A DNA stretch of 64,000 bases. Origin: Diprion similis. Lineage: Eukaryota; Arthropoda; Insecta; Hymenoptera; Diprionidae. The notes below the pieces were generated by a model. The model saw nothing but the letters and a program-made list of their open reading frames with translations, was not told where the DNA came from and ran no database searches. Positions within the stretch are counted from its first letter, which is position 1. Each line of letters begins with the position of its first letter. This document shows, piece by piece, positions 3,812-56,800 of the stretch. Where the stretch lies: contig NC_060116.1 in NCBI RefSeq assembly GCF_021155765.1, forward strand, positions 3,596,001-3,660,000. The letters are read 5' to 3'. The position numbers were made by a program, and so were the translations under genes.

Positions 3812-6800
3812 AGGTCGTCGACTATGCGACACGGCTGGGAATCGACCCTGAGGCTGAGCCGCACCTCTTGGGCCTTGCCAAGGATGGGCTCATGGCTGCT
3901 CTGCCCAAGGGATGGTCTCCCTGCTTCCACGAGGCGACGGGAGCCTGGTACTATTACCAGGCTTCGACGGGCACCACCACCTGGGAACATCCTCTCGACT
4001 CGGTCTACAAGGAGCTGGTAGAGAACGCGAGGAAAGGAAACCGGCAACCGAGCATTGGTGAGTCTTGCTCAAGTCAAAATCACACCGGTGCGATATACGT
4101 ATAATTGATTGAATTGTAATTACAAAAGTGAAATGAATCGCAATTTATATTTGTGTGTGTGTGTGTGTGTGGGTGTTTTTTTTTCTCTTTCTCTTTACAA
4201 TTATGGCGGAATGAAATATATATTATATCTATAGGTAATTTGTAGTAATAGGAAAAAACGAAATACAGTATATTTGTGATTGCGATTGATTATATATATA
4301 TATATATATACATATATATTAGGGTGGCGCAAAAAACCGACTATTTTTTTTTTTTGCGTCTCGTGTGACAAAATGTTAGTTTTTGATGTTTTAAGAGCCC
4401 ACCCCAAAGGACAGTGCAGAAAAAAGTTTTTAAGAGGTCGCTCCACACTTTTCAAATGTCAGAAATCGTCAAAAATCGATTTAAAAAAAAAAAAAAAAAA
4501 TTTCTCGTTACGGTATAATTTTATAGACAAAATAAAAAATAAGTTTCCGAAAGTTTCGGTTCAAAAGTTGAATTTTGAAAGGTCGCTCATAATTTTTTTT
4601 CAATTTTTTTGTTGCATTTCTTCAGATCTTTTCGAGCGACCTTTTAATATTCATATTAAAATTTCATAAATTTTTTTCTCTTCTTTTGTAAGAAAGAATC
4701 GATAACAATACACTACGACATGAATTAAAAATCAAACAAAATACTGAAAATACAATTTTTTTAATTTCATTTTTTGACGATTTTTTACATTTAAAAAAAT
4801 TTCGAGCGACCTCTTAAAAATTTTTTTTTTGAGCTGTCCTTTGGAGTGGGCCCTTAAAACATTAAAAACTAACATTTTGTTAGACGAGACACAAAAAAAA
4901 AACAGTCGGTTTTTTTGCGCCACACTAATGTACATATACTAAAAATCCAGCCAATTTCCATAAGGATTCTGCGGAGTCCTTTAGTCTGAGTTTACACTTT
5001 TCCCCTTACTGATATTTGTTCACATCCGTCTGATTCTTCCTCATTTACTGAGTATTCAACTCGTATTTCTGTTTTCTTTATTTTCTGCCACACAGCCGGA
5101 TTGTACTCACAAGTACTGTCGGGCATGTGTTTTTTTTTTTTTTTTTTTTTTTTTTATCCTAATCTGAAGTAAGCTTCGATCCCTGTTGAGTGAAATGATA
5201 AGATGTTGAATATAACGATTGAAGTTATTCGAAATGTTCTAATCCATCGTAACGTACTAACGTGGATAATTAGTTATTTAACTGATATGTTTGTGTTAAT
5301 GTTTCTACTTTTCAACAACTTTCGTGATATTCAAGAAAAGTATTGCTCTTTGTCTAAAATAATCACATTTTCTAATATCAAGCAATCTTCACGTTTTCGG
5401 ATTTCAACAATTCCAAAAACAGTCCGTCCTTCTGCCGGTAACTCAATTCTGTTCGAAAAAAGAGAACACGATGATCTCGCAAATGCCTCGATGTAAAAAT
5501 CTGCAATTTATATCAGAACATGCAAGATGAAAATGATGCTTATTGCATTAATTTGATTGTCAATTCGTTAGGTAAACATTGTGAACCAAACAGACTTGCA
5601 GTAGTTTCAACTAAAATTTTTAATCATCGAATGATCGAATTTTCCTTCATACTATATATTGGAAGCAAACCTGGTACTTCGAAAAATAAATTCACTCAAA
5701 CCTGGTTTCACAGTCACTACATTTTTCACACAGCGAGGTTTTTTAAACTTCTGTTTTGTTCCATTCGATTCGAAATCTATGACTACATTATGTCACATGC
5801 AGAGTGGCCCAGGGACAAGGCACAAGTTCCCTCGCCTTGACCCTTGATCCTGACAATGAGTTATCGATTTTCCCACCCGCAAGCACCTGGAAATATATGA
5901 CGTGTGTTGAACGTTAGCATGCTTTTCCACCTTGCGTTCTGCGGCTAGAACAGCTTCATTTATGAACCAGACTCTCCTCGTTAATAGGTTGCCCTGGGAT
6001 TCTAGTTTTTACCCAAAATTCTCCCAATGCTTTTTCGGTTCGTCACTCGTCCACAGGTGAATAAATCGCTACATTCTTTGTACGCATAATACAATCGATG
6101 AAACAATCAATAATTAATCGATGTAATCAATTTTATGAAAATATGCCGAATACGAGTAAATCCAAGTTCTTAAAGGTCACGCCCATACGTTAAAATATAA
6201 ATATTTCCTATTTTTCGCCGTGAAAACATACAAACAATAGTTTGTATCGTTGAATACGATCAAAAATGCTATTTAAAAAAATTTTTTGTACGCTAAAAAC
6301 CCATCAACTCCCTTAATTTTTAATATGAAGGGTTACTGATTTTTTCACGTAATCGGAAGAATATTGCGAACAATTTCTCGTTTGGATTTTTTGATACCTC
6401 TTTTATTTCAAAAATTGAAATTTATAAAACGATGAAGAAATATTCGAAAAATGTTGAGTTTTCACGAAGTTAACCTTCGAAAGAGATATTATTATATAAA
6501 ATATCAGCAACTTTTTCGCATCATTATTTTGTAAGCCTGATTTTAGCCACGTGGACCCCCCCTTAATATGTATGTTTCAGTAAGAAAGAAATTTTATGTT
6601 GAATGCAGTAACTGATTACGTAAATAAAGGTATTTGCAAATATAATATGTATTGTATTCATCTCTGATTAAAAAATATGTATGTACATACAATTTGTATT
6701 TAATTTCTCTGTGATAACGAAATACGAATGTAATGACAAAATGTCAATTATTTCTTGTTCACAATAAATGATTTCCCGTGCGAAGAGTCGATTTTCATCA

Positions 6801-9800: not shown

Positions 9801-12800
9801 CCTCGACGAGATACGCAGAAGCAAAGAGATGATGCTTGAGTCGATGAAGCGGAGTGATATGCGGGCAAAAAACGAGCTTCAGAAGAAGAAGGACGACGCC
9901 TATCACCTGATGAAGATCAAGCTCGACCTCGAGTCAGCCAGGAATCAGAGAGAGAAGGCGAAGGCCAAGAGCCAGATGACGAAGAATTTTCAGGCGGTGA
10001 AATCGGCGGTAAGGAGAGAGCGTGAGAAGGAGATACAGGACCTAAAGGATGACTTCCAGATCAGGTACGAGGACACGAAGACGGAGTACGAGGCGATGTT
10101 CCTTGCGGAGAAGGGCTACCTCGAGGAGAACATTAAGGAGAGACTAGCCGAGCTCAGGGAAGATATGAAGCAGCGGGAACAGCTGGAGGTCCAGAACCTC
10201 GTTGCCGAGATGGACAAGACTCGAGTTGAGGAGCTGAACAACCTTCGTAGCGAGCTTGAGGCCTGCTACGAAAAGGAGAAGCAGGAGATCCTGAAGAACT
10301 TGAGGATTGAACTGGAGGAGAAGAAGTTGGAATTGTTGGATCACAGGAATCGGGAGATCGAGAAGCTGAAGAATGATTTCGAGAAGTCTTTGGAGGAGGA
10401 AAAGGCGTTGAAGCTCGTTGAATTGGATCTTGGAAGGCAGCATGCTGAGAAGGTCAAGGCCCTGAAGACCAAGATGGAAAAGGAATTCGAAGACACGGTA
10501 ACGGAGCTCCGTTTACAGCAGAGGGAGAAGATATCTAAAGTAACCGAAGACCACGAAGTCAGCCTCGCCGAAATCTTACGGGATTTTAGAACGGAAGTAA
10601 GTCATCTTTATACTATGACATCATTCACAGACTTCAAAAGTAAAGAATGTATAGAACTGAGTAGAAATTTCAATCAGTTTGATCTACTATTTAGAAGATT
10701 CTCAGCTACGCAGTACCCTAGCGGTGATCTATAATGATACAATATTTGGACTGGAAATTACTTAATTCAGTTTCCTTTCTGCATCACATTCACTTCTCGG
10801 TTCACCGGATTCTTTTGTCCTTTTGGTCTTTCATACTCCATACGATCAAGGATTGTCAGTTTTAATCAAACCAAAAGTCTAGGAACTAGTTTCAACACAG
10901 TTTTATTCAATATTCTACACATTAGTTCTATTATGCTTTTGCAATACCTAATAAAGAAATCAGAGATTGATTTCGATAAATATTCGTCTATTTTTGCTCT
11001 GACTTAATATACTGAGAAAAATTTCATTTCTCATAGTTACTAGAAAATATCCTCATGATAGTGGTTCAACTATTGCAAGAGTGACAAGAAAATGTGATAC
11101 AAGTAACTAGTGTAATTATAGTTGTCCATAATACATTTTCTGATTATTTTAATGTTAAATCCTTTTCCTAATATCAATTTATTATTGTGTCAACATTAAA
11201 TTTTTGCAATGATTACAAGAGAATATAATACGAGTGACCAAAATTAGACACGGTATTGAAAAATGGAATAAGACTCTGTATTCCTTAAGTCAGTAAGCGG
11301 AAAATATCAATTCCAGGAAGATCTCGCGCGAAAGGAGTACAAGCAACGGTTGGAAGAAGTGCGAGCTTCGTTTTCTCGAGATATTGAGAAAGAGATGAAG
11401 AAGCAAAGCGAGCGCTTAGTTCGTCCAGACACGATGGACTATGAGAAGATTCGTTGTGAGAAACGGCTGGTCGAGGACAAGTATAAAACGCTCAAAGAAA
11501 AGTACCTGAAATTAAAAAATGACGTGCGATTAGCCGTGGAATCAAGAAGCAGGAGAAAAGAGGCGAACGCCACGGCATCGGAAACCGAAAGATCCACTTC
11601 CGCAAGGACAAAAACGGAACGCACCGAGTCTGTTGATCAAAAGTGAGTTCTGGCTTCGGTTTTCTTCTGAAAATTTATCAGGATTATTCGTAAAGAGGTG
11701 CCATTAATTTGTGAAAATAACAGAGGATGTGGGATTTTCTAAGTTCATGAAAGTTACCGATACAGTATTCACATAAACCAAATTCCATGTTATTATCGTA
11801 GTTTTAGAATAATTTTCAAGCCAAAAGCGAGTTCAGATTTCGCGGCTGCGATTCAAGTATTGTTTAAACCTGCACCTGTACGAATGAACATCGTAGTGTA
11901 GTGTATTCTACTATTATTTTCTGCACCGCCATGTTTAGCGTATTTTCTTTTTACTTTACCTATTATCTCATCCCCATGCTGTTCGCCCTAATATCTGGCT
12001 ATAGGCCTTAACTCAATATTGCAGAGCGCCGTTAAAAAAGACGCAATCCATAACAACGCTCTCGGAAAATGTAAATCAGAATGACAATGGCGCCGAAGAA
12101 AGCGACGGCCAGAAAATACCGGGATTTTCAAAAACACCCAGCGCCCTGAAGCTCGTTCAGAGCAAATTAGAATCGGACGATACGACAACGGCGAGCGAAC
12201 AAAATTCAAATCTGCTTAAGAAGAAAAAGTTATTCACAAAAAAGGCGGCCAGTACATCAAAGTTGAACAACAACGTTGAGAATCCCGTCGAAAACATAAG
12301 GAAACAGCTCGAGAAGTTGGAGGACCTGGGGGACCAATTGCCAAGCAACGAGAATGCTTACACTCTGAGATATCCGTTCCAAGATCAAGGTATTCTTTTC
12401 TTTTTTCTCAATTTTTGTCTCAACGATTCATCTCATCTAAAAATTTCAACCGGTACTTGATAAATTTAATTACAAGGAAGAAAAACTGATTATCTCTGTT
12501 ACAATTGGGCCTAAAGTATGAATAAAGAAGGGATTAGTTGAACAAAAACTTGTACTAAGAGAAAAATCCGCCTCATGCGTTTGAATTTTGGAAACGTTAT
12601 GCTTAAAAAAAAAAATTCCCGACTGCGCATGTAAGCCGCAAGTCTTGTTTCAGCGCCAGCGAACGCTTCATCGGACATAGAATTCTTCAGACATCGAATC
12701 CACGTCGAGAGAGATTCCGTGAGGCGAGCCAGAGAGGCACTTCATCAGCAGAGAAATCTATTCCAAGGAAGACAGAGGGCTTGGAAGCAGCGAAGCGTCA

Positions 12801-15800
12801 GGGCGACACTGGAGCAGCTGGTACAGGTGAAATTCGGTTTCCAATGAGTCACGACGAGAAATTGACTTTCCATTTTTCAAAAGCATGCGATCTGAAAAAG
12901 ATCTTTTTTGCGAATTGTTCATCAGAGGAACTCCAAAATGCTACAATTTTTAGCAGATTTTAACTATAAATGAAGTTCGATGAAACGTTTTGCCTGTTTG
13001 GACTGATTGTAAGTAAGTAACTCTCGACAGTGGTTCAAAGAGAAAAAAGGAAATTATTATAACTACCCCAAAAGTGGAAGGTTTAGTTTTCACTAGATTT
13101 CGATATTTCCAAAATCAACATCCAAAATGACAAATCCGATATGGTGAAAAAAAATGCTAAAAATATTAAGATTTTGGTAGAAATTAGTAAAGAGAGGTTT
13201 TTGGATCACGGATATCGAATCCGAAGCCAGACTTTCAAAATTTGTGGTGGTGAATCCATTACAATGGTTCAACATAAAAAATCGTGATATTTTCACGTAA
13301 CATGGTACCTGGGGTCTCTTAAGGTGCTTATAAAGACCCGTTCTACACCTCGAAAACACGGGGATGCAAAACTCCTATACCGCTCAAGCGATCAGAGTGA
13401 AACTTGGGCAGTTAATGCCTTATTTTGGCAAAAAGTGGAGAGACGTTTTACTTTTTTAAAATTTGTAAAAAAATTTTACAGATTAGTTACCACTCCCAGA
13501 AATTGGCCAAATTTTCACAGTTGCACTGAATGGATCGACCTATACGGTATGATGCCACTCGACGGTGATAAAACACACATTTTGAGCCCATTCCCATGAG
13601 ATTTGATAGTGAAGTGACGAAATGGCAGCTGATCTGGTTTTCGATTATGAAGAACACTGAAATCTCATTTTGGTGACATTTGTCGGTAATTTCTTACCGA
13701 CATTACACGCATACATTACCGGCATGCGCATAATGTCGGTAACAAATGGCGCCTAAATGAGATTTCGGTGTACTTCGTAATCGAATACCAGATCAGCTGC
13801 CATTTCGTCATTTTACCATCAAATCTCATGGGACTGGGCTCAAAATGTGTGTTTCATCACCGCCGAGAGGCGTCATAGTTCGGATAGTTCGATCCATTCA
13901 GTGCAACTGCGAAAATTTGGCCAATTTCTGTGAGTGGTAACCAATCTGTAAAATTTTTCATCCCCGCGTTTTCGAGGTGTACAAGGGGTCTTTATAAGCA
14001 CCTTGTAATTCGAAATTCGAATTGAAAAAAATGAATATTTTTTTCCCTTTCAACTTGAAACCCGCACAGTAAAAACAAGAAGTTCGAGGGCTGGTTCATA
14101 TCCAGCCTGGGCCCGCTTGTTTTAAGATCAACCTTGAGACAAAAAGCTTTTCGAAAAAATCTCATGTTACTTTAACCATTATCCGAGGATCGAATTCAAT
14201 CGATCAAAAAGGAGAGAGGAATATACTTGTTTCGTAAAAATCTTCTCATAGTCAAATTTCAATATCAATCCTTGAAAAATTTATGAGTTTCACCTTTTCT
14301 GCCCCTTCAACAGGAGGAGCGCGAGTTATCGGACATGGAGGTTAGCTTGCACCGAACGCGGAGTCTCCTGGGGGAGAAGGTGATTCACTTGCGCCATCTA
14401 GAACGCTCCCTCGAGAGAGTTGCCAACGCAAAGAGAAACAAAAACGAGCAGACGGCAAAAAGCGACGAGCTGACACTGAGTGACATCTCGAGTGCGAGTA
14501 GCGGCTTCAGCTCGACCGATTTAGAGACCGACACTTTTATCGGTCAGTAAATTCCTCAGCAGGTTTTTGGTCTTGCAAACTATATGTATATGGCATACCT
14601 GTGCAGTACTCAACGGTTATAATCGTACGTGTAGGAAAATCGGAACACTATCAAGAATCGACGGAGATCATAGCCAGCCTCGAGAATCTTAATTCTGAGA
14701 TTCGTGAAATATGGGGTGTCCTCAACAAAAGACAGGACAACAGTGTGCCACCTCCACCGACACTGATGTACTCGGATCTGAGGTGGCTACCTTATCAGCA
14801 GCTCACTACTCAGGCCAACAACGTCCCGGGTAATTGTTTCAATTTTTTATTGAGTAATTATGAAATTTTTATACGCTAAAGCTGAAAATATTTCTAGAAT
14901 TAATAAAACAGAAGCCTTCACATCGATACTTTACTATGCATCACGCTTCAAATATCGAACGAATTTATTACAGATTTTTAACAACGATATCTAAGCTTTT
15001 GGTTATAATTCCAGTATTTTTTTCTTTATGTATTTCTGAAAAGATGATCGTAGCTTATGAATATGATAATTTAATAAATAGTCAATGCACGATCATTACA
15101 CAATAAAAATTAGTATAAAGATCGATTTTACTTCGACTAATTTCTTCAAAACTGCCACTATTAAAAATTCAACTTTTCAAACTGTTCAATTACTCAAGCT
15201 TCCTGAAGCAAATTCAAATGTATCGTTTTTTTTTTATGGAACTTTGTCAACGTAATGATACGAAAGTGAAATCTATTTCATTGAATACCAACCACTTGCA
15301 TTTAAATTTACAATTTTGCATCATGTCCACCTGAAAAGTAATTGAGTTTCACCGGAACACGTTTTTTTTTTTTTTTTTATACCATATTCGCAACATTGTA
15401 TAAAATATTTAGTGTCATTTACTCCCCCAGACTATGAGCAGAAGTTGAAATTTTCATAATTATTTATAAGCACAGTTATTTATGATATTATTATGATAAA
15501 ATTTATCCTTGTTAACTTTGCGTACTTACTATTCGACGTGTCATTGAATTTGCGATACTCGAATACCGTACGAATCGTTTCCAGGATGATAAAAGATTTT
15601 TAACTTTCCAACAGCTTTCGGAACGCCGAACATCCAATCGAACATTTTGTCCCAGTTGACCGGTTCTCATCCGCCAACCACCACGACTCAAAATATAATC
15701 GCTCAGTATGGACCTACCAGCGGATATACGACCAGCGTTGGAAACGTCGAAAGGACAACGTCCAATCTCATGGAAAGGACCAGAAATCTAAGAGACTGGT

Positions 15801-18689: not shown

Positions 18690-18726
<37 letters not shown>
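18690..18726. repeat. (AAT)n microsatellite
   Basis: About 12 uninterrupted ATA/AAT units in the gene-poor region after CEP164. Open frames seen across it (poly-Ile) are artefacts of the repeat. Confidence 0.95.
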
Positions 18727-18728
<2 letters not shown>

Positions 18729-20008
18729 ACCAGTAATAATACTTACTCCAAAACTCAATTAAAACCGTTGCGTGGGTATTGCTAGAAATGTTTATAATAA
18801 TATACATACACGTAGATCACATCACCGGCCAATTGGTTGTCGAATCTAGTCAGCGGGCGTTCCTTCTAAATACTCATTCGGATATATATTTATAGCAATA
18901 AAGTGTTCGATTGATTTAGTTTTTATGGCATCGTGATCAAGAAAACCTGACAGCTGCGGGACGATCGCGATTCTGAGTCGATGAGGCTGTCGAGTATAAG
19001 TTTATAGTTTTAACGCGAAAGTGTAGGTTATTTTTGTTTCATGTTTCAAGCTCTGTGTAACAGCATGGATTTGGAAACGATAGATCGGACAAGTTGAAAT
19101 TTCTGATGGATTGAAGGAATTCGATGATTGGAGAAAAAAAAAAAAAAAAAATGAGAAAAATGTCATAGTAAATTCTCTGAGAATTACACGACGGGGTTAA
19201 CGATTCTTGAAATCCGGTGTGAACCGATGTCGCAAGATCTTCGAGATCTTCGATGACACTTGAGTGAATTTTTGTAAGGTTTTTTGAAATTCAGTAAAGA
19301 CCGTCGAATCTCATTGGATCTTACACGAAGTCCGAGGTGTGGTCTTGAAGTACGAAGTATGAAATCACACAGTTCTATGTAATACGAGGTCTTATAAGAT
19401 TTGGAGAATTTTTCGAAAATTTCATGGAACGAGAAATCTAATTAAACTTGATATTAACACCTCAAGTTCCCATAAAGTTTTATGAAATTTTGTAAAATTT
19501 TACAAAATCTCAACTATAATTAATCAATAAAGATCTTTGATCAGTCCCGAAATCCACGGTGAATACAGTTTTTCAAAGTTTGATTAACCCCTCGGTGGTA
19601 TTTGGCAAAATTGATATTTTATCATTGAAAAAAAAAAAAAAAAAATTTCGTCAAATATGCTTATATTGAAGTCCAGTATGATGAAAGTTATATCCCGAAA
19701 TATTGTTGTCGGTTTAACATATTATTATTATAATATATATCAAAGACTAAAAAGCTTTATCATTGGTTGTAGAGACGAGCGAAGGTCAAATTTATTATAT
19801 ACGAGCTTTGAACAAATAATGGCGAGAGTTAAACGTTAGGAGTTTTTGAAGCACAGAAACGCGAGATCCCGCGATTTATCAATATTTATTGTAGGTAGGT
19901 ATGGTAAAGTGGCGAGTTTCTTGCGATATGATAACGACGTGTCGATAAGTCTTTTATCGTGCGATCGATACTATTATACATTTATAATACAATATATATG
20001 TATATATA

Positions 20009-20614
20009 TTAGGATGGCGCAAAAAAAACCGACTGTTTTTTTTTTTTTAGTCTCGTGTGACAAAATTTTGGTTTTTGATGTTTTAAGAGCCCACTCCAAA
20101 GGACAGCTCGAAAAAAAAATTTTAAGAGGTCGGTTCAAATTTTTAAAATGTCAAAAATCGTCAAAAAATTGAATTAAAAAAAATGGTATTTTCAGTATTT
20201 TGTTTAATTTCTAATTCATGTCGTGATGTATTGTTATCGATTCTTTCTTACTAAATTGAAGAAAAAAAATTTATGAAATTTTAATATGAATATTAAAAGG
20301 TCGCTCGAAATGATCTAAAGAAATCACCAAAAAATTGAAAAAAAATTATGAGCTACCTTTCAAATTTCAAATTTTGAACTGAAACTTTCGGAAACTTATT
20401 TTTTTTGTCTATGAAATTATACCGTAACGAGAAAAAAAATTTAAAAAAAACATCGATTTTTTACGATTTCTGACGTTTTAAAAAAATTGGAGCGACCTCT
20501 TAAAAATTTTTTTGAGCTGTCCTTTGGAGTGGGCTCTTAAAACATCAAGAACTAACATTTTGTCACACGAGACTCAAAAAAAAAAAAAATAGTCTGTTTT
20601 TTGCGCCAGCTTAA
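20009..20614. mobile_element. TTAGGGTGGCGC fold-back MITE, copy 2
   Basis: Same family: TTAGGATGGCGC left end and GCGCCAGCTTAA right end. It has the internal GTCTCGTGTGACAAAAT block and its inverse. Both sides show TATATA, consistent with a TNNNNA duplication but uninformative inside TA-rich DNA. Intergenic between CEP164 and gene A. Confidence 0.9.
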
Positions 20615-21123
20615 TATATATATATATATATAAATAAAATTGGAATTGTATTTAAAAATTTGAATTGTAAATAAGGAAAAGCACATTATATACATATAAT
20701 ATATATATATATATATACACATTACTTACATTGATTATGCGTATATGTAACTATATATGCATATTATAAGTATATAGTATATAGTATATAGTATATGGTA
20801 AAAGGGTTGATTGTGAATGGTAAAAATTTGTTAATATGAAAATCTTTTCGATGTTGATTTTGTTACGAAGGTAATCTGATATGCAATACGCGATTATACA
20901 TACATATATAATATATACATTGTAATATATATATGTATATATTCAAAGTTATTTTATACGTATTTTAAAATATTATTTAATTAATATTACCAAATACGAA
21001 TATTTTTCACTGATAATTTCATTAGACAGTGTTGTGATATTTGAGATGATTTATAATTTCTTGCTGATTTCTTATTACGATGCGAATTTATTAATATTAT
21101 ACTTCATATATTTAGTACAATAT

Positions 21124-22400: not shown

Positions 22401-22403
<3 letters not shown>

Positions 22404-22445
<42 letters not shown>

Positions 22446-22456: not shown

Positions 22457-23107
22457 TTAGACTGTATCAAAAAAATTGACTATTTTTTTTTTAAATGGTA
22501 TACTGAAAATATTGTTCAAGATGACGAAAAAGAAATACCATAAAAATTTCAGATTTTAATATTGATATTTAGATGTGCCTCATCGCGATTTTCTACTTTC
22601 CATAAGAATAACATGGCAAAAATGGTTCTTGCTCCTCGCGATTTTTATAACTAGATAACGACGCGTCGTACAGAAAATTCATAAACATGTTTTTGTAGGA
22701 AATTGAACGTTCTACAAAAAAGGTCTCTTGTCATTTTACGATAAATCTGCTCCTTCAAAAGTTATTTGAGGTCCTTTGCTGATGTTTGACCTCAAATAAC
22801 TTTTGAAGGAGTAGATTTATCGTAAAATGACAACAGACCTTTTTTGTAGAACGTTCAATTTCCTACGAAAACATGTTTATGAATTTTCGGTACGACGCGT
22901 CGTTATCTAGTTATAAAAATCGCAAGGAGCAAGAACCATTTTTGCCATGTTATTCTTATGGAAAGTAGAAAATCGCGATGAGGCACTTCTTAGTATTAAA
23001 ATGAAGAGCTATCCCATTTTAACAGGCGCCTTTTCTCGGTATCCTGAACAATATTTTCAGTATATTTTTCGAAAAAAAAAATAGTCAATTTTTTTGATAC
23101 AGTCTCA
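22457..23107. mobile_element. TTAGACTGTATC fold-back element, complete copy
   Basis: The left end TTAGACTGTATC and right end GATACAGTCTCA bound two arms of roughly 300 bp that are near-perfect inverse copies (shared blocks GATAACGACGCGTCGTAC and AGTAGATTTATCGTAAAAT). They meet at a loop of about 15 bases near 22780. TATATA borders both sides. No coding capacity; intergenic. Confidence 0.9.
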
Positions 23108-24677: not shown

Positions 24678-25236
24678 TTAGGGTGGCGCAAAAAAACCGA
24701 CTACTTTTTTTTTTTTTTTTTTTGAGTCTCGTGTGACAAAATGTTAGTTTTTGATGTTTTAAGAGCCCACTTCAAAGGACAGTTCAAAAAAAATTCTTAA
24801 GAGGTCGCTCCACATTTTTTGAAACGTCAGAAATCGTCAAAAATCGATTTTTTTTTTAAATTTGTTTTTCTCGTTACGGTATAATTTTATAGACAAAAAA
24901 AAAAAAAAATAAGTTTCCGAAAGTTTCAGTTCAAAATTTAAATTTTGAAAGGTCGCTCATAATTTTTTTTCAATTTTTTGGTGCATTTCTTTAGATCTTT
25001 TCGAGCGACCTTTTAATATGCATATTAAAATTTCATACATTTTTTTTCTTTAATTTAGTATGAAAGAATCGATAACAATACACCGCGACATGGATTAAAA
25101 ATCAAACAAAATACTGAAAATATAATTTTTTCAATTTAATTTTTTGACGATTTTTGACATTTTTAAAAATTTGGAGCGGCCTCTTAAAATTTTTTTTTTC
25201 TAGCCGTCCTTTGGAGTGGGCTTTTAAAACATCAAA

Positions 25237-25241
<5 letters not shown>
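24678..25241. mobile_element. TTAGGGTGGCGC fold-back MITE, copy 3, right end lost
   Basis: The left end is intact (TTAGGGTGGCGC). The right arm stops at CATCAAAAACTA, where a (TA)n tract of about 60 bp begins, so the last roughly 70 bp of the element are missing. Lies 120 bp from the gene A stop codon. Confidence 0.85.
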
Positions 25242-28539: not shown

Positions 28540-28996
28540 CCTCGCGATAAGAAAATTTCTTCGACACTGGAGTTCACCTCCGGATCTTCACTGCTAACGG
28601 ATTCACGAGTGATGATTATAATAACGTCACCTCATTATCGCGTGTCGTGATGATCACGTGGTATCCACCTTTGTCCATTTTACCTGGTCTACTTCCTTCG
28701 CAATTTAACGAGCATGCATGTCACCTCCAGTTTCTCGTAACTCGTTCCGAGATAGAGTTTAACAGTTAAACAATTCTCCCCTCCAAGTCGCGGTCCACAC
28801 ACCGCGGAAATTGAGTTTCACGCTGGTAGTCACGTAACAATCATACTCACCGCTAACTTCTTCTTTTTTTTACCCATTTCCCATGTACTTACACAGTCCC
28901 CATTCAGACCCTTCGGAATATTAATGTGATCTCAAGAAAATAATCTCGCCACAATTAATGATGCGATTTTGTCAGTTTGTTATTGGCTCTTATTTT

Positions 28997-29781
28997 GAGG
29001 TGTTTATGAAGACCCGTTGTACACCTCGAAAACGCGGGGATGCATAACACCTATACCGCTCAAGCGATCAGAGTGAAACTTGGGCAGTTAATGCCTTATT
29101 TTGGCAAAAAGTGAAGCGACTTTTTACTTTTTCAAAGTTTTGAAAGAAATTTTACAGATTGGTTACCACCCACAGAAATTAACCAAATTTTCATAGTTGC
29201 ACTGAATGGATCGAACTATACGGTATGATGCCACTCGGCGGTGATAAAACACACATTTTGAGCCCATTCCCATGAGATTTGATAGTGAAGTCACGAAATG
29301 GCAGCTGATCTGGTTTTCGATTACGAAGAACACTGAAATCTCATTTTGGTGACATTTGTCGGTAATTTCTTACCGACATTACACGCATACATTACCGGCA
29401 TGCGCGTAATGTCGGTAACAAATGTCGCCAAAATGAGATTTCGGTGTACTTCGTAATCGAAAATCAGATCAGCTGCCATTTCGTAATTTTACCATCAAAT
29501 CTCATGGAACTGGGCTCAAAATGTGTGTTTCATCACCGCCGAGTGGCATCACACCGGGTAGTTCGATCCATTCAGTGCAACTGTGAAAGTTTGGCCAATT
29601 TCTGTGGGTGGTAACCAACCTTTCAATTTTTTTTTCCAAATCTTAAAAAAGCAAAAAGTCGCTCCACTTTTTGCCAAAATAAGGCATTAACTGCCCAAGT
29701 TTCACTCTGATCGCTTGAACGGTATAGGAGTTCTGCATCCCCGCGTTTTCGAGGTGTACAACGTGTCTTTATAAGCACCTT
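28997..29781. mobile_element. AAGGTGCTTATAAAG long-hairpin element, copy 2
   Basis: Full-length relative of the 13321 copy, about 785 bp. Both arms carry CTCGAAAACGCGGGGATGC or its inverse next to the ends, and CGATCAGAGTGAAACTTGG or its inverse further in. The whole element folds on itself with centre near 29390. Lies between gene A and its decayed duplicate. The few mismatches between arms suggest a young copy. Confidence 0.92.
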
Positions 29782-29984
29782 AACGAAAGGGCATGAAATG
29801 TTGAATCTATCAGGTAGTGATGCTTTTTCTGACTGAAATGAAAGGCTAGCCAGAAACAAATTACCTCAAAATTACTGACCTAGTCACGTGGCTTGCAAAT
29901 CACGCTTGAATCGCGTGGTCGGTATTGCATTTTTCTAACAATAAAATACGTACTGAGAACGAACACAGAGATTGCTGGACTCAG

Positions 29985-31361: not shown

Positions 31362-33854
31362 ATGTTAAGTAAACTGTTTATACTAATTGGGTGCGCGGTG
31401 AGTGCCTCAGCCGCAGCGGATGTTGGTTTAGACCTATTCTTTAACGAGGTTCGAAGCCTGAGTCAGCTGCCGATGGATAAATTGATCCACATGAAATCAG
31501 TGTTCACCTTCGATCAAGGTTCGTTTTTTCTCTCTATTCTTCTTTTGGCCTAGCCAGATTACCGCAAGCTTTCATGCACATGGATTTTCCATCTCCAATA
31601 AGAGAGAAAGTTATACGTTTAGTTTCCTCCTATAGACGTTGGAACGTTTTGAGCTCTGGAGCTAATCGTCTTGCGTAATTTGTGGATGAATTTTTATCCG
31701 ACACTATGTTGAGGGGGAATAAATAAATTTCCATAATTTTATTGCACATATTTCGCGAATAATCAGCTAAAGTATCCAACCAGCGAGTAAACCGAACGAA
31801 CACAAACATGGCGATCGTATCGTAAAACGCCAGAGTTTAATTATCTTGAACGTTTTGATTAATAAATCTTTTCTCAAATTGTTGACGTTATACGAATATA
31901 GCCTGTGCGATTTCGATGCACATAGCGGGTGTATTGTTTCAATCATATTAATGGTCTACCCTACTGACGAACAGAAAAAAGGGTTTTTCCAGAATTTTTT
32001 TAATAAGTTTTAACTGTCAATATTGATGTAGGATTTGTTAGGCTTAATAAATATGCTCTTGGATTAACTATTCATGTGGCATGCCCGTACACCGCCTGTT
32101 TTATTGGCAAGGATAAAGATTTCAGGACGAGCTCAAGGCGAGCCGAAAGCGAGTACTGAAATTATCCGAGCCAAAAAACGGTTTACGGGCATGCCACATA
32201 CAATCTTTTTTACGGTATGGGCATTGAAAAGCAAAACGAAGAGTGAGGTTATGTCGCGATCTGTTCGACGAAGCTACTTTATTTGGCAGTTTGGGATGCG
32301 CACTTCGAACTGCGCATCAAAATTACGGAATAAAGACTTTATTCCGCAACTTTGTTCGCTGCCGTATAAAGCGTCACTTTACGTAACGAGAAATGCCACA
32401 AAAAGTAAACTTTTCAATGCCCATGCCGTAAAAATAAATTTTTTTATTCATTTTAATCACTTTTTGTACACGGAAATCGAAGTTGAAAATCAGTCTGACA
32501 AAAGGTAGGTTTGCGGTGTTGATGATTTCTCAGAGATGGTTAACCTGAAACCAAAAAATCGAACGGTTTTAGATTCAGCATGTTAATGGCCTTGGAATGA
32601 ATCAAACAATTTTTGATATTCGTAAAATGAACAAAACGGCGGCTATTTTTCGAAAAAATTGAAAGGAACCGCTTTTTTGACGTGATTAAAATTTTGAAAA
32701 TGATTAAAATCAATAAAAAAAAATGATTTCATGTAATTCAAGAGCATATTTATTAACCCTAACAAAGCCTACATCAATATTCACAATTAAAACTTGTTAA
32801 AAACATTCTTGAAAAACCTTTTTGTTTTTGCTCGTCAGTTGGGTAGACCCCTTAATTATCATTGGCGCAAACAAAATTGCTGGATATTTTCGAAACAGAT
32901 TTTTCTCTTTCCTGAACGTCTGATTCAGGCCCAATGGGTCCCAATCGTCGTAAATCACTTGTTGTATTTCAGATCAGTCGCATGAGAACAACGAGACTCT
33001 CCAAACCGATTTTGAACACCCCTCATCGACTCTGCCAGTTGCCCTCCCTCTTGCGAGGCCGAATTCAAAAATTGTTCGACGTCACGACGACTACTGGCAA
33101 GAAGGATGGTATAAAAGCTCGAAAATATCAAAGTTCTTTCAGCTGGCTGTCACTGCCCTGTCCTTTTTCGCGTTCGGAGGATACCTTTTGACTCTTATCA
33201 TCACTGCACTAAGAAGAAATGCCGCAGTCACGACGCCAGGAAATGTTATATTTCTCCAGGTATAATTAATCATTAGGGTGGCGCCAAAAAAACCGATTAT
33301 TTTTTTTTTTCTTTGAGTCTCGTGTGACAAAATGTTAGTTTTTGATGTTTTAAGAGCCCACTCCAAAGGACAGCTCAAAAAAAAAATTTTAAGAGGTCGC
33401 TCCAAATTTTTTTAAATGTCAATAATCGTAAAAAAATTAAATTAAAAAAATTATATTTGCAGTATTTTGTTTGATTTTTAATTCACGTCGTAGTTTATTG
33501 TTATCTATTCTTTCTTACTGAATAAAAGACAAAAAATTTATGAAATTTTAATATGAATATTAAAAGGTCGCTCGAAAAGATCTAAAAAAATGCACCAAAA
33601 AATTAGAAAAAAATTATGAGCGACCTTTCAAAATTCAAATTTCAAACTGAAACTCTCAGAAACTTATTTTTTTTTCTGTCTATAAAATTATACAGTAACG
33701 GGAAAAAATTTAAAAAAAAAATCGATTTTTGACGATTTTTGACGATTTCTGACGTTTTAAAAAATGTGGAGCGACTTCTTAAAATTTTTTTTTGAACTGT
33801 CCTTTGGAATGGGCTCTTAAAACATCAAAAACTAACATTTTGTCACACGAGACT

Positions 33855-33904
<50 letters not shown>

Positions 33905-35034
33905 GTCGGTTTTTTTGCGCCACCCTAATAATCATGCTCGATTTTTATTAAGGTCGGATGATTAAAAATCCGTTCTATTTTCTGATTTTTTTATACGAGA
34001 TTGTGAATCTTCGAGTATCTGCTTATGGAATTATTATAATCTTTACTCTTGTGAAAATTTCTACTATTACAGAGTTTTACAGAAATCGGAAAATCTCGTA
34101 TTTTTTTATACAAAAATTGTAAATATGCATAGTTTTTCGTTAAGGATTGTTGAATTTTTTTTTTTTTTTTTCTCTTCTTCAATTGTATTGTCTTGTAGAT
34201 TTTTTTTTACTGAAGAAATAAAAATTACTACGAAGCTGCAAGTTTTTATGATAAACTATGCATATTTACAAAATTATACGAAATATTTCAATTTCTCTGA
34301 AAATTCGTAGAAAATCTTAGAAATCATTTTGACCAGGGCAGCTATAAAATCCCTTAAAAAATACAGAGATAGCAAGTACTAGCCTTCTGTCGAGGAGCAA
34401 AAACCATATGAATTAATCCACTGTTTTTTTAATTTTTAATTAAAATCAGCCTTATTTATTTTTGTTCCATAAGATCTTGTGACAGTAAAGTCATTAAATA
34501 CTGAAAAACTGTGGGTTACGCGCTTTTGGTCCCTTTTGGTCCTCGCAATGTGTACTCGAGCAAAAGTTCAGATGATAGTTCGTTTAAAATCAGTTAAAAA
34601 TTGCCAAAAACCTAGTAATTTCATTCGATTTTCCTCCACAATCATTTTATTTAGAAGACTATTTCCTATGAATTCACCAAAATGCTTTTGTTTCCATTCA
34701 ATTATTGTCGCTACCGTTTGATAGAAAAATAATAAGTTGAGTGCTGAATTTGATTGAAAAACATTACTCTTATTAAAAATTTACTAATTTTCACCGGAGG
34801 TAAACCGAGTTAGAAAAGATTTTCAAAAAATTACAAGAGTCGAGTCGAGTATACTAAAATTGAAAACATAACGTATTGTTGTTGTGCCTATATCGATTGT
34901 TCCAGGGACTGCAAACTCCGGTGAAACGGCCCAAGAGATCAGCTTTTCACGATCCAATGGAGAACGATTTTAACACCGAAAGATTGTACCAAGGGATGAT
35001 CATGCTGTCGGAAGGCTACGCGCTGTACAATTGA
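31362..35034 (+). CDS. Gene B: signal-peptide, single-pass membrane protein of unknown function
   Basis: Exons 31362-31518, 32973-33259, 34906-35034 (TGA 35032-35034) join in phases 1 and 0 to give 190 residues. Residues 1-20 (MLSKLFILIGCAVSASAAAD) are a cleavable signal peptide. The middle is polar, with Arg/His/Asp-rich YW..GWYKSS, followed by one strongly hydrophobic helix (FFQLAVTALSFFAFGGYLLT..) closed by Arg-Arg, so a type I membrane topology is predicted. The C-terminal tail contains RPKRS, a basic cleavage-like site, and ends LYQGMIMLSEGYALYN, which looks like a conserved motif. Intron 1 contains a TTAA-flanked element and intron 2 a fold-back element. A poly-A signal AATAAA lies at 35183-35188. 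I do not recognise the family; it looks like an insect-restricted surface or cuticle-associated protein, which is inference only. Confidence 0.8.
31952..32851. mobile_element. TTAA-flanked inverted-repeat element (gene B intron 1)
   Basis: TTAA borders both sides (31948-31951, 32852-32855). The ends are TGGTCTACCC..ACTGACGA and the inverse of GGGGTCTACCCAACTGACGA, with about 110 bp of arm similarity (ATTGATGTAGG, AATAAATATGCTCTTG). TTAA duplication is characteristic of piggyBac-type transposases. No transposase is encoded. Two further hairpins are nested inside. Confidence 0.82.
32074..32430. repeat. Two nested hairpins inside the TTAA element
   Basis: The first hairpin spans about 32074-32203 with termini ATGTGGCATGCCCGTA and TACGGGCATGCCACAT. 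The second spans about 32212-32430 with termini ACGGTATGGGCATTGAAAAG and its near inverse CTTTTCAATGCCCATGCCGT. Both lack coding capacity. They are absent from the related copy at 41757, so they look like later insertions. Confidence 0.7.
33273..33928. mobile_element. TTAGGGTGGCGC fold-back MITE, copy 4 (gene B intron 2)
   Basis: Complete, with termini TTAGGGTGGCGC and GCGCCACCCTAA. Exact 6-bp duplication TAATCA at 33267-33272 and 33929-33934. A 47-base A run (33856-33902) sits just inside the right end. It begins 14 bp after the exon 2 boundary of gene B. Confidence 0.95.
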
Positions 35035-39200: not shown

Positions 39201-39642
39201 TTAGGGTGCGCAAAAAAACCGACTATTTTTTTTTTCAGTCTCACAAAATGTTAGTTTTTGATGTTTTGAGAGCCCACTCTAAAGGGCAGCTCGATAAAAA
39301 AATTTCGAGAAGTTGCTCCAAATTTTTTAAAATGTCACAAATCCTCAAAAAATTAAATTAACAAAAATTGTATTTTCAGTATTTTGTTCGATTTTTAATT
39401 CATGTCGTGGTATATTGTTATCTATTCTTTCTTACTAAATTAAAGAAAAAAAATTTATGAAATTTTAATATGAATATTAAAGGGTCCCTCGAAAACATCT
39501 AAAGAAATGCACCAAAAAATCTGACGTTTTAAAAAATGTGAGCAACCTCTTGAAAATTTTTTTTTTGAACTGTTCTTTGGAGCGGGCTCTTAAAACATCA
39601 AAAAATAGCATTTTGTCACATAAGACTAAGAAAAAAAAAAAT
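39201..39642. mobile_element. TTAGGGTGGCGC fold-back MITE, copy 5, internally deleted
   Basis: Left end TTAGGGTGCGC. About 150 bp of the centre/right arm is missing compared with other copies (GCACCAAAAAATCTGACG joins distant parts). The right terminus has decayed into an A-rich tract before a TA repeat. Lies upstream of H2.0. Confidence 0.8.
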
Positions 39643-43204: not shown

Positions 43205-43253
<49 letters not shown>

Positions 43254-45756
43254 TATACAGAGTATATTTTAGTATATTTTACTAAATTTAAGTCTGCTTC
43301 TTTCAACTTTTTATCACCGTTGGTGATGATATAAAAAAGCATTCGTTTCGGTCGGAAATCATTTTTTCTGATTGTCATTACGTTTCCGAACCTCTAGAAT
43401 CCAAAAACCAGGCTTTTGGAAAATGTTAGTCTGGTTTTCGGTCTGACAAGCTTTCACAATGATCTCAGAAACCGCTTGACGAAGAAATTTCAAACTTACA
43501 GGATTTTGCAATAAATTGATGGGCAGAAAAGATTTTCATGTCCGTTCAATTTAAACTTTCCATTCTACCGGGAGTGAATCGATTTTTTATGTTTTACCGA
43601 CAAACCTATATTTTTTCTTCCTTACTACTTTTTTTCTAATAAAACGAATATGTTTTTCCCAGTTTATACATTTATTTTTACAAAATCTTACTCATTTTTT
43701 ATTCATCAATTCTTTTTCTCTTCCTTTCCGTAGTGATGAAAAGTATCTTGAAAAAACTCTTTTTCCAAGCTTATTTTTTCCGCACTTCTCAATGATTATT
43801 TGATTATTTTTATATTTGAAAAAAAAAAAGATTGTAGATACCCTTGAAAAAACAATGTCTAAAAATGGATCTATGAATTGATTTGGTTAAAAACGCAAAA
43901 AAAATTCTCATAACGTTTGCATCCATAACGAGAGAACATTCGACCGAGTAAATCATGAAGCTAAGAGTTGGAAATCAGATTGCAAAAAATTTTAAAGGAA
44001 CTAAAATCACTGAAATATTCTTTGAAATAAAGGGTGATCACTCGATATAGTTAAAACAATTAAAAAAATGTCCTGTTTTTACAGTAATTTCCACTGATTT
44101 CCAATGATTTCGCAGCGTTCCAGGTGATATCTAATGACTTGTTGTGATTTCCTGTGATTCTACGTAATCCGGAAATTAATTACCTTCACCAATAATACTA
44201 ATTATACATACTTAGTTCATTTAATTATCAGGATTGTTAATTCACTTCAAATAACTATTCAATCGTAAAAGTAAAGGCGTGACCATCAAAATTTCTATCG
44301 GTGTATATTAGGGTGGCGCAATAAAACCGACCAATTTTTTTTTTTTGAGTCTCGTGTGAGAAAATGTTAGTTTTTGATGTTTTAAGAGCCCACTCCAAAG
44401 GACAGCTCAAGAAAAAAATTTTAAGAGGTTGCTCCAAATTTTTTAAAATGTCAAAAAGCGTTAAAAAATTAAATTAAAAAACTTATGTTTTCATTATTTT
44501 GTTTGATTTTTAATTTATGTCGTGGTGTATTGTTATCGATTCTTTCTTACTAAATAAAAGAAAAAAGATTTATGAAATTTTAATATAAATATTAAAAGGT
44601 CGCTCGAAAAGTTCTAAGGAAATGCACCAAAAAATTGAAAAAAAATTATGAGCGACTTTTCAAAATTTAAATTTTGAACTCAAACTTTCGGAAACTTATT
44701 TTTTTTTTTGTCTATAAAATTACACCATAAAGCGAAAAAAAAAATCGATTTTTGACGATTTCTGACGTTTTAAAAAATGTGGAGCAACCTCTTAAAAATT
44801 TTTTTTCGAGCTGTCCTTTGAAGTGGGCTCTTAAAACATCAAAAACTAACATTTTGTCACACGAGACTCAAAACAAAGAAATAATCGGTTTTTCTGCGCC
44901 ATCCTAGTGTATATATGTATTTTAATGAATTGGAAAATTCGTGTACAAAGTACGATGATTGTGAAAATTTCGAGCACCTATTTCGTCTGCAAATTGAAAA
45001 TATTTTTCGTCCTCATATATCTTGGCTGTCACAATTTCATCACACATTGTGACGAAGTTACGTGATAATTTTTTGTCGCTATAACTTTATAACTTCAATT
45101 TAAGCAAGTATAGTAATGATACTGATCAATTTGTGTGTTTACAATTAGTGACATTATATTGCATACTAAAGACTTATCGTGAAGAAAATTGTACAGAAAA
45201 TTGTCAAGAATAATTCCCTAGCAAATTAAACTATATTTTACACCTTGCCAATCATATTTCATAATTATCCACATCGTGTGTGTAACTTATTTAACCTGTA
45301 TCACGATGATCGTTTTTATTGCTAGAAATTATCGCAAAACCGCAACAAAAAAAAAAAAACAAAAAAAAAAAAAACGTTTGGTCATCTAGAATTGTAAACT
45401 TTTTCATCAACCATACGAAGCTTATCGAATGTTAATTGTTGACAATAAGTATGAAACTCATTCGTAAGTCCGAACGTATAAAAAATCGTTTGCATCTTTA
45501 TACTCGCCTTGTGTGATTTCAAAGCCATATTTGGCAATTCGACAGCTAAAGTTTCTAATATCTTTCCATTATATCAAAAGATGATTCTATTCTCAAAACC
45601 AACTTCGAATACTAATTGTTGAATTTCTTGGTGTAACCTCCAGATATTTTTTATTGTCACGTAGCGTAATTGCAAAGTGTAAAACTATTCGAATAAACAT
45701 AAAATTTCTATTCCATTTCCTCGATAATTAAATCACGAATGTTTCCATAATCCGGC

Positions 45757-45804
<48 letters not shown>

Positions 45805-50871: not shown

Positions 50872-52797
50872 ATGATTCGCTTGTGTAACCTAAGGTGGAC
50901 AGTTTTTGCCTGCATCCTTGCGATCTCGGTAAGTCTGCGATTACAGAAATAATAAGTGAACCGTGCGATGAATAAATAAATACGTAGAAAATAATACCGA
51001 AAGAACCTGAATTGAAAGTAAAAAAAAAAAAAAAAAAAAAAATTACACAACTACTATGAATCGATAGATATGTACCTAATAATTAAAAAAGTAAATCAAG
51101 CGTCATGAAATGTAAATCTTTGTGAAAGTCACTTCTTTTTTTTACACATTAAGACGAAATCAAGTCTCACTAAGTGAATACTTGATATAGTATCGGGTTC
51201 TTGTTTCTGAATAATTAACACGTATATTCATTGGAGAGGAAATATTTCACGACAGGATGAGGAACGTTCGCCATCTTGTTTTACACCCCTTTGAGTAACG
51301 CCAATGTGCTTATAACGAAAGTTTAACCCCATTGCAGATTGGAGTATTGCACGGCATGACACACGTTGAATTTCACGAATATTACTCCCAACTTTTGAAC
51401 GACGTCGATAAATTGTGCGAACTGAGTGCTGACTACATCTCGGAAGTAATTAGGCGACTGTTCATCAGTAAAAAAACTGATAAACTGAAGATGGTGAGTT
51501 GGATTAATATCACGGTCTAATAAGATGAAGATGCAAAGAACAATTTGAGGAGTTACTTCTGAAGCAGATTTATAAAGCTTGATTTCAATTAGCAGTTAAG
51601 TTACAACGCGATACGTCTATGCAAGCCAGGTCTTAAATGATTTATTACATAATTATTACCGCCGACAATCTATAGAAGAGTTGTAATCAAAATTTATATA
51701 ACCAAGCGAAGTCTATGCGATACCTGCTCTTTTCATTTCCCGAAGTTATCAATTTCACAGTGCCGATTCTGCTGTGTCGAATCGCAGTTATATTAATTCA
51801 CATCGTAACTGTATAACAAGAAAAGCTCACACGTGTGCTTGCGACTGCCGAAAGCATTACTACAAGTGCTTTGCGAACAATATGAATAATAGAGTGGTGC
51901 AAAAAAACCGATTATTTTTTTTTTTTTTTTTCTTTCAGTTTCGTGTGACAAAATGTTAGTTTTTGATGTTTTAAGAGCCCACTCCAAAGGACAGTGCAAA
52001 AAAAAATTTTAAGAGGTCGCTTCAAATTTTTTAAAATGTCAAATATCGTCAAAAAATTAGATTAAAAAAAATTATATTTTCATTATTTTGTTTGATTTTT
52101 AATTCATGTCGTGGGTGTATTGTTATCGATTCTTTCTTACTAAATGCAAGAAAAAAAAATTTATGAAATTTTAATATGAATATTAAAAGGTCGCTCGAAA
52201 AAATTTAAAGAAATGCACCAAAAAATTGAAAAAAAATTATGAGCGACCTTTCAAAATTTAAATTTTGAACTGAAACTTTCGGAAACTTATTTTTTTTTTT
52301 TTTTTTTTTTTTGTCTATAAAATTATACCGTAACGAGAAGAAAATTAAAAAAAAAAAAAAAAAAATCGATTTTTGATGATTTCTGACGTTTTAAAAAATG
52401 TGGAGCGACCTCTTAAAATTTTTTTTTCTGCACTGTCCTTTGGAGTGGGCTCTTAAAACATCAAAAAATAACATTTTGTCACACGAGACTCAAAAACAAA
52501 CAAAAAAATAGTCGGTTTTTTTTGCGCCACTCTAATGAATATCGAGAAATCGTACGGATACACACTTTAATTTTTGTCTTGAACCCTCTTCCGATATTAC
52601 AGATTAACAAGCACTACGACCTGATGGTGAAGAGAGCTCAGCCCCTGTTGGCGCTTTTCCATGAAGATATACGGAAGCTTGTCATATTCACAGAAAACTT
52701 GCAGAGCATAAAAATGGTCAAGAAGTTCCTCTACTCTTACTTCAGACAGAGTGCAATCAATTTGATCGATCACTTGAAGCGTGTCTACAACTTGTGA
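50872..52797 (+). CDS. Gene C: small secreted helical protein, unknown function
   Basis: Exons 50872-50928, 51338-51493, 52603-52797 (TGA) are all phase 0 with good splice sites (GTAAGT, GTGAGT), giving 135 residues. The N-terminus MIRLCNLRWTVFACILAIS is a signal peptide ending at the first intron. The mature part is predicted almost entirely helical, with charged and aromatic residues (EFHEYYSQLL, DLMVKRAQPLLALFHEDIRK) and one cysteine. It lies 711 bp after H2.0 and about 1 kb before the P450, in the same orientation. A 647-bp fold-back element fills most of intron 2. No homologous family is recognised; a small secreted ligand or carrier is possible but unsupported. Confidence 0.75.
51889..52535. 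mobile_element. TTAGGGTGGCGC fold-back MITE, copy 7 (gene C intron 2)
   Basis: Ends ATAGAGTGGTGC and GCGCCACTCTAA, slightly diverged. Exact 6-bp duplication TGAATA at 51883-51888 and 52536-52541. The element ends 67 bp before the last exon of gene C. Confidence 0.92.
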
Positions 52798-53823: not shown

Positions 53824-56800
53824 ATGCAACGTATTTTCATTCGCTGCGGTATCGTGAATCGAAACACAAGCTCAATTATCTCTGGCAAAACGGTTCATCG
53901 TCTTTTTGCTGGAAAAACGCGACCATTGACAGCGATCGAGAGACAAGAACGTTTTCGAGATGCATCCAATGAACTGCTCTGTAAGTTTTTCATTCCATTT
54001 ATAACCTAATTGTCATGGAAATTCACCTTTTCTTCCGAATTCATGTACCTCGATGCACTCCATTAAGTAGTATGCTTGTACAGTTGATCAACAATTGCAC
54101 AAACGTGTTTAGAAATGTCAAGTATTTTTATCCGTAAACATTTTTCAGCAGCCACTATAGCTCAGCCGCAAACAACCGGCGGTTTGGCTTCGGAAATGTC
54201 ACCAACTTCTGCCACGATACCTCTGACAGATACGGCAGTGTCACAGCAAGCAAGTAACATCTTTGATATACCAGATGTGAGTGCATCGCCAGAAGTAACG
54301 AGAGATAAGACGCCTTTACCTTTCGAAGACATACCGGGCCCGTTGGCTTTGAAGATTTTTGAAAAATATTGGAAATACGTACCTCTACTTGGTACGCAAT
54401 TAATTTGCAGCCTGATCATCAACAGATTAACTCTCGGTACGGTTTATTCAAAAATTCGAACCTAAACGATATTCAAAATTCGAATATACATTCATCTTTC
54501 GAACTCATTTTGCTCCGCCTGCAGCGCTTCAATAAACTCAGATGTGTATACTGTGTACATTAGGGTGGCGCAAAAAAACCGACTATTTTCTTTTTTGAGT
54601 CTCGTCTGACAAAATGTTAGTTTTTCATGTTTTAAGAGCCCACTCCAAAGGACAGTTCAGAAAAAAAATTTTAAGTGGTCACTCCACATTTTTTAAAACA
54701 TCAGAAATCGTCAAAAACCGATTTTTTTTTTAATTTTTTTTCTCGTCATGGTATAATTTTATAGACAAAAAAAAAAAATAAGTTTCCGAAAGTTTCAGTT
54801 CAAAATTTGAATTTTGAAGGGTCACTCATAATTTGTTTTTAATTTGTTGGTGGATTTCTTTAGATTTTTTCAAGCGATCTTTTAATATTCATATTCAAAT
54901 TTCATAAATTTTTTTTTTTTTAATTTAGTATGAAAGAATCGATAACAATACACCACGACGTGGATTAAAAATCAAACAAAATACTGAAAATACAATTTTT
55001 TTAATTTAATTTTTTGACGATTTTTGACATTTTAAAAAATTTGGCGCGACCTCTTAAAATTTTTTTTTCAACTGTCCTTTGGAGTGGGCTCTTAAAACAT
55101 CAAAAACTAATATTTTGTCACACGAGACTAAAAAAAAAAAAAATAGTCGGTTTTTTTTACGCCACCTTAGTGTACACGTTTATTCGAAATTTGAAGGTTT
55201 TTCGAGTTTTGAATAAATTGTCTCATTATTGTTTCTCCGCAAAAATGCAACAGTCACACACGCAAGGGGTCATCATTCGCTCAAACTGTAGATCGAAGTT
55301 CTTGCAACAGTTGCAGTGAATTAAGGAATTTTAAAAATAATAGGTCAGCTGAAGTGGAACCGAAACGTGATGCCTTTGAAGTACTTGTTCAACCAGTACG
55401 GACCCATAGTTTGCATCCATGGACCCATTTCCGGTGATATAGTCATGATCCATAGGTGGGCAATGGCAATTTATACTCGTACTGAAGTGAAAAAAAAAAA
55501 TCTTTTAATACGTTTATGATCATTCACGCCAGACCAGAACATATTGCTGAAGTTTACAAACAAGAAGGCGAGAAGCCAGTCCGAAGTGGCATCGACGTTC
55601 TACAGCACTATCGACTACACTACAGAAAATCCAGGCTTCCAGGGCCGTTTACAATGTCAGTCAAGTAGGCAGTCAGATGAAGACGTCCTAACCGACTAGA
55701 AAGATAACGCAACTGTAGTACTTCAGATACTTTCAAAGTAAGAATAACAATTCTGATCACTGAATCATAGGCAAGGAACAGAGTGGACGGAGTTTCGAGC
55801 AAATCTGGACAAACCGTTTGCCCAGCAGCTGACACAGTATTTTGGAAAACTCGAAATGACGTGCGATGAGCTCGTCCAGAGGATACGGAAAATCCGGAAC
55901 AGGCAGGATGAGGTACGCCGTGAATTGCACTTACATTTTGTGTGGGTAGTGGGTATAGAGAAAATTGAAGGAAAAAACTGTGCTTTTTTATGCTGCACAA
56001 AGGTGCCCGGTGACTTTGGTCAGGACCTTTCCCGTTGGGGCATGGAGTGTTTTTCGATCCTGATGCTAAATCGACGTTTGGGTTTCCTCGAGCCATCTGG
56101 ATTGAATGCAGCGTCCGAACCGGCGAGAATAATCGAAGCTCTTACCACTGCACATCTCTATCTCAGTCGCTGTGAAACTGGTTTCCAGGTTTGGCGGTTC
56201 TTCGAGACCCCGTTTATCAGAAAACTGTTCGCGGCCTGTGACGTTATTGATGGGTAGGTATGAATCGGAGTTTCCGTAATTTTGAAACCTTCACCGCGGT
56301 CAGTCGTCATCTTCTCACATTATTCTTCGATGCCACGTTATCAGAGTGATCGGCAAATATATTCGACAAGCTCAGAACAAATTGCGCAATCGATCAGCTT
56401 CCACCTACCAGGAGAAAAATTCAACCCCAGACAACGTCGACGACAACGGTTCTCCCATCCTAGATAAGCTGATCTTGGATCAAGAGATGCAGCCTGACGA
56501 TATATCGACTCTTATGATGGACATGATCATTTTAGGTGTTCAGGCGGTGAGTTCAATCATTTCGATAAGAACGTTAGTTTTATATAATAACTGCACCGCT
56601 GGTTCGTTGGTACTAACTTTCTGCCACGCAATTGTTGATTCAGAGATTCAAAACGGTTATGAAAATATGCGAAAAACTAGGTTACGATCATTTCATATTC
56701 AAGTAGATTTACCTAGTCGTGGTTATAGTTTGATGAACAATAGTCAACATGTAATAAGTACCCAACGTATCTTCAGACAACGAATAGCGAAGCCTTCCTC

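Follow-up and report, generated by a model that had tools for sequence, protein, structure and literature searches.

A 64,000-nucleotide stretch of the Diprion similis genome (NC_060116.1, positions 3,596,001 to 3,660,000, or C12:3596001-3660000; hereafter the window) contains a repeat family, family 1, whose members are very probably non-autonomous hairpin (fold-back) miniature inverted-repeat transposable elements (MITEs) belonging to the hAT superfamily and, within it, most likely to the hATm branch. Our confidence in the superfamily is high; it is somewhat lower for the branch, because no transposase could be linked to the family. The element reads TAGGGTGGCGC...GCGCCACCCTA and its target duplication is 8 bp long, not 6 or 4 bp as proposed in an earlier note made from the letters of this DNA. 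That note recognised an eight-copy fold-back transposon family, and eight related copies were confirmed in the window, six with both ends and two that have lost the right end.

The length of the duplication was analysed in two-ended copies drawn from the window itself, from eight places with the exact terminal pattern, from 20 stretches of contigs C1 and C2, and from the places that best matched one window copy (the top 30); this sample is non-random, is confined to ends with at most three mismatches, and comprised 56 copies after duplicates were removed. With the element border placed at TAGGG...CCCTA, the two flanking 8-mers were equal in 28 of the 56 copies, compared with a mean of 7.75 and a maximum of 18 when partners were shuffled (20,000 shuffles). 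Since shuffling leaves local TA-richness in place, a second comparison admitted a pair only if each of its 8-mers contained G or C; of 31 such pairs, 17 were equal. The length of 8 bp follows from the outer two columns of these 8-mers, which covary beyond chance. Column 1 shared a non-A base in 5 pairs against 0.88 expected (p 5e-5, shuffle test), with G/G at the window copies starting at 44309 and 54561 and at loci L012, L022 and L023, while column 8 shared a non-T base in 2 pairs against 0.20 expected (p 0.01, shuffle test), with C/C at L035 and L058; columns 2 and 7 are near-constant, so that covariation is not measurable there. Equal pairs are exemplified by GTAATTAT at L023, GTGTATAT at window copy 44309, ATGTACAC at L035 and GTATACAT at L022. 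The TNNNNA duplication of the earlier note is therefore real in its T....A pattern but represents only columns 2 to 7 of an 8-bp sequence. The element is shorter by one base at either end than the note had it: what was taken for the first base of the terminal repeat (the T of TTAGGG, and the A of CCCTAA at the other end) belongs to the duplication, as its outermost position. The alternative of a 4-bp duplication with an extra A/T terminal base likewise fails on the covariation of the outer columns and the 28 equal 8-mers.

The insertion sites of family 1 are strongly palindromic. The flank consensus is ATRTAYAT across 124 unique ends, a total to which one insertion may contribute both of its ends. 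The combination of T2 and A7 was found in all 28 identical 8-mers and in 111 of the 124 ends; a central TA was present in 106 ends, with T2/A7 but no central TA in 15 and the reverse in 10. Family 1 thus shows the hAT-type target preference nTnnnnAn. Hermes, a hAT element placed in the Ac group, is autonomous and has termini that differ from those of family 1. The published account of Hermes describes the same 8-bp duplication and the same nTnnnnAn target (PMC2803484).

With up to two mismatches allowed, the window contains 12 matches to the terminal 12-mer TTAGGGTGGCGC, against 1.06 expected. Eleven of them are ends of family-1 copies, and the remaining one, at 60814, does not lead into family sequence. 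The reference copy (L009; 33274..33927, plus strand) lies between the 8-mers TTAATCAT (33266-33273) and ATAATCAT (33928-33935), which agree at 7 of 8 positions, and is predicted to fold as a hairpin. The copy at 44309..44906 (plus) has GTGTATAT on both sides (44301-44308 and 44907-44914), an 8/8 match in which the outer G favours 8 bp. Matches of 7/8 were found for the copies at 51890..52534 (plus; ATGAATAA at 51882-51889 and ATGAATAT at 52535-52542) and 54561..55169 (minus, inverted relative to the 33274 copy, inverted-repeat pair I12; GTGTACAT at 54553-54560 and GTGTACAC at 55170-55177), and a 6/8 match for that at 4320..4927 (minus relative to the 33274 copy, pair I14; ATATATAT at 4312-4319 and ATGTACAT at 4928-4935). 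The copy at 20010..20613 (plus) is bordered by ATATATAT on both sides (20002-20009 and 20614-20621), a pair that is equal yet uninformative in its TA-rich setting, as the earlier note had said of the TATATA duplication there. All five pairs of equal flanking 6-mers which that note named are present. The two incomplete copies lie at 24679..25240 (minus relative to 33274, I3 and I20; its left end is complete, whereas the right one is missing at a (TA)n run) and 39202..39640 (plus; internally deleted and without the right terminus), both with approximate right limits.

In the 269-Mb host genome (60 contigs), TTAGGGTGGCGC occurs exactly 1284 times, compared with 13 times for the reversed pattern, and a DNA search with copy 33273-33928 gave 1583 first-look candidates and scored 40 of them. 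A majority sequence built from the 51 of the 56 two-ended copies that are at least 560 bp long has 612 positions, from which these copies diverge by 4.3% on average (range 1.8-8.3%). The self-complementarity described for the element is real. Aligned over its full length with its own reverse complement, the majority sequence matches at 73.7%, and the predicted single-stranded DNA fold of one copy has -177.8 kcal/mol, whereas 20 shuffled versions average -69.1 (z -21.5). In addition, the outermost 163 bp of the reference copy align, inverted, with the opposite ends of further copies at 89-92%, a range taken from the search rows giving 163 bp alone. Family-1 copies contain no recognisable gene: the longest stop-to-stop frame in the 56 two-ended copies is 115 amino acids, and a Pfam search with the three window frames of at least 110 amino acids overlapping copies gave no family match (E 0.1). 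Being numerous and moderately diverged, the copies are well suited to measuring how hATm elements choose their targets.

The consensus for hAT termini is YARNG, which the terminus TAGGG of family 1 fits. The earlier note had dismissed hAT as not fitting, but the 8-bp duplication, the nTnnnnAn target and the TAGGGTG...CACCCTA ends make hAT the best assignment. The hATm elements, proposed as a fourth hAT family, are described with ends 5'-TAGGGTG...CACCCTA-3' and duplications of 8-9 bp (PMC6004678); the ends of family 1 fit these termini, and its duplication also falls within this range. Within hATm, the published hATm-6 and the MITE hATm-NA6 share with family 1 the sequence of the termini, duplications of 8 bp and a MITE form in insects, and two members have long inverted repeats (PMC6004678). 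The comparison with hATm-NA6 covered the ends of the elements, and the strong ATRTAYAT palindrome is an observation on family 1. A further parallel is Mar, a hAT MITE of Drosophila willistoni, which according to its published description is AT-rich, 610 bp long, without coding capacity and flanked by 8-bp nnnTAnnn duplications with a central TA of the Buster type (PMC3517528). Mar differs in its 11-bp ends, CAG(G/A)GGTAGGC, whereas family 1 is a full hairpin, is more numerous and also has T2/A7. Among the papers listed by a literature search on fold-back hAT elements in Hymenoptera, none treats family 1, judged by the title and the opening of the abstract.

We infer that the copies are mobilised in trans, through cut-and-paste chemistry, by a hAT(m) transposase: a hAT enzyme made elsewhere would bind the inverted ends TAGGGTGGCGC..., excise the element and join it to the target with an 8-bp stagger, and repair would then leave the 8-bp duplication. 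DNA rich in (TA)n may be hit since it is rich in the preferred palindrome. It is possible, although rather doubtful, that a hATm lineage with an unusually strict and fully palindromic 8-bp target, ATRTAYAT, combining Ac-type T2/A7 with a Buster-type central TA, populated a thousand or more sites, often TA-rich, with two hairpin families and left no autonomous copy in the genome. Family 1 is an ordinary hAT-type MITE family with a strongly palindromic target, and leaves the picture of hAT transposons unchanged.

That the copies arose by insertion is shown by empty sites. When the genome was queried with the joined flanks of three copies, the hits were those flanks and, in addition, two places across the junction of L023, whose filled site reads agtGTAATTAT, element, GTAATTATagttgtc. 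One place, in the window at 11086..11139 (plus), reads AGTGTAATTATAGTTGTC uninterrupted, with GTAATTAT once and a 7-base alignment gap just before the target; the other, C6:22963870-22963926, reads AGTGTGATTATAGTTGTC, with the target once and one change. Both are paralogues, not alleles (80-83% identity over about 60 bp). A filtered search for empty sites inside the collected stretches found none.

Several observations weigh against an 8-bp hAT family. Half of the pairs (28 of 56) are not identical, and 10 of these 28 have fewer than 5 of 6 core matches; among the 46 pairs with a good core, those with a non-A column 1 disagree in 5 of 10 cases and those with a non-T column 8 in 4 of 6. Moreover, 11 of the 28 identical 8-mers are ATATATAT, and many of the sites consist of (TA)n, in which a match is easily had by chance. 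Since the 6-bp and 8-bp readings give one and the same joined sequence at an empty site, the empty sites show insertion, and the length rests on the outer columns. The hairpins of family 1 are also unlike the terminal inverted repeats (TIRs) of most hAT elements, which are described as making 8-bp duplications and as having mostly short TIRs of 10-25 bp (PMC3942097). To these can be added the search for an autonomous partner. The genome contains at least 116 matches to PF05699, the hAT dimerisation domain, which in itself speaks for hAT; a partial check covering 109 of these 116 matches revealed no autonomous element with family-1 ends nearby, the 3' flanks of 80 of the 116 (643-997 bp each) lacked a family-1 right end, and 29 more hAT domains (C1, and C2 below 4.5 Mb) had no exact 12-mer end within 36 kb, a search that changed ends would escape. 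Long inverted repeats could put an end beyond the flank read, so that a partner may still be present in the genome.

A rival account is the model of the earlier note, in which a 6-bp TNNNNA (or 4-bp) duplication flanks an element with ends TTAGGG...CCCTAA, of Dada, Sola or Chapaev type; IS3EU was considered alongside these. Shared 6-mers at five window copies agree with it, as do the changed outer bases that go unmatched in several pairs (5 of 10 pairs for column 1 and 4 of 6 for column 8). Yet a base fixed in the element would not be expected to vary in step with the outer flank at the opposite end, as the supposed terminal base does more often than chance (G/G in five copies and C/C in two). 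This base is T in 112 of 124 ends, compared with constancy at 120-124 of 124 ends for each of the next seven TIR bases inside this variable outer base. Dada duplications are 6-7 bp long and Sola duplications 4 bp, and neither agrees with the 8 bp of family 1; the Dada-, Sola- and Chapaev-type candidates fall with the shorter length. IS3EU, as described for fungal elements, does make 6-bp duplications, with ends TAYGG..CCRTA (PMC12730594), but these ends differ from those of family 1, and the 6-bp length contrasts with its 8 bp. We therefore regard this model as extremely improbable. The misassignment of the superfamily arose from leaving the outermost base at either end out of the duplication; 8-mers with near-invariant A/T outer bases are easily taken for a 6-bp or 4-bp duplication, and a hAT MITE is then misfiled.

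Other sources of an 8-bp duplication were also weighed. P-type ends start with CA, and Galileo, which has fold-back ends, makes 7-bp duplications. An element of the P superfamily with an 8-bp duplication and fold-back relatives such as Galileo, which has been named a member of that superfamily (PMC4168063), would find a possible source of transposase in the 89 genomic matches to PF21787 (TNP-like RNase H). We take this domain to be that of P/THAP9-type transposases. The termini of family 1, however, match hATm and its T2/A7 target matches that of Hermes, which makes a P-type origin very unlikely. Duplication length alone does not separate hAT from Zisupton/KDZ, Merlin, Novosib or Mutator-like elements, but the TAGGGTG...CACCCTA termini together with the nTnnnnAn target point to hAT and not to these, and PF12762, the Merlin-type domain, had no match in the host genome; there is accordingly only a very slim chance that one of these superfamilies moves family 1. 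Mariner, raised by a likeness of TTAGGGTGGCGCAAAA to a human mariner end, was rejected, as CA flanks 33 of 124 ends and TA only 85, and the duplication is longer than TA, in line with the exclusion of Tc1/mariner in the earlier note.

Returning to hAT, a number of candidate partners were rejected. An apparent 5.7-kb full-length element at the exact end pair C1:12667905/12673598 proved to be two separate copies. The pattern TAGGGTGGCGCNBNB, representing family-1 ends with a different interior, was found at 15 places compared with 22 for the reversed control, which is background; among loosely matched ends (up to two mismatches) in the collected stretches, 21 of 151 had no family body behind them and look like chance matches or other repeats. 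L084 contains an ordinary family-1 copy beside a hAT domain, the match at L112 is poly-A and a short stretch only, and L107 has one CACCCTA compared with 2 in the reversed control. At L082 a hAT domain is followed by a small TAGGGTGGGCC element, whose orientation is wrong for an end belonging to that domain. Behind this small element is an 84-mer (L082:565-648; C10:1595147-1595230) of another repeat family, with 131 first-look candidates, several plus/minus pairs about 1.1 kb apart, and 3 of 40 scored places (one being the query) within about 2 kb of hAT-domain matches. On contig C1 the hAT-domain matches and the MITE ends occupy separate regions: 18 of 19 PF05699 matches lie at 13.5-17.5 Mb and 82 of 84 exact MITE ends at 1.28-12.67 Mb.

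Family 2, a sister fold-back family, is represented in the window by a near-perfect palindrome at 22458..23106 (plus), with ends TAGACTGTATCAAAAAAATTGACTA and flanked by ATATATAT, and by the left part of a second copy at 59341..59777 (plus; flank ATGTACAT). There are 953 first-look candidates in the genome. Its 8-mers were equal in 6 of 10 fetched end pairs, in the same 8-bp frame as family 1 and to that extent in favour of the 8-bp reading, although these are all ATATATAT or ATGTATAT and hence weak alone. The layout of its ends, CAAAAAAA..GACTA followed by a T run, resembles that of family 1, but its terminus TAGAC departs from YARNG.

The window also contains a third hairpin family, at 13319-13990 and 28986-29792, with arms of up to 239 nt separated by 58 nt and ends near AAGGTGCTTATAAAGACCCGTT in the first copy, unlike families 1 and 2. 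An inverted-repeat element at 31977-32823 has 90-nt arms at 90%, 667 nt apart. Host gene exons were identified by Pfam for a WW-domain protein (3649-4101) and a cytochrome P450 fragment (56788-57486).

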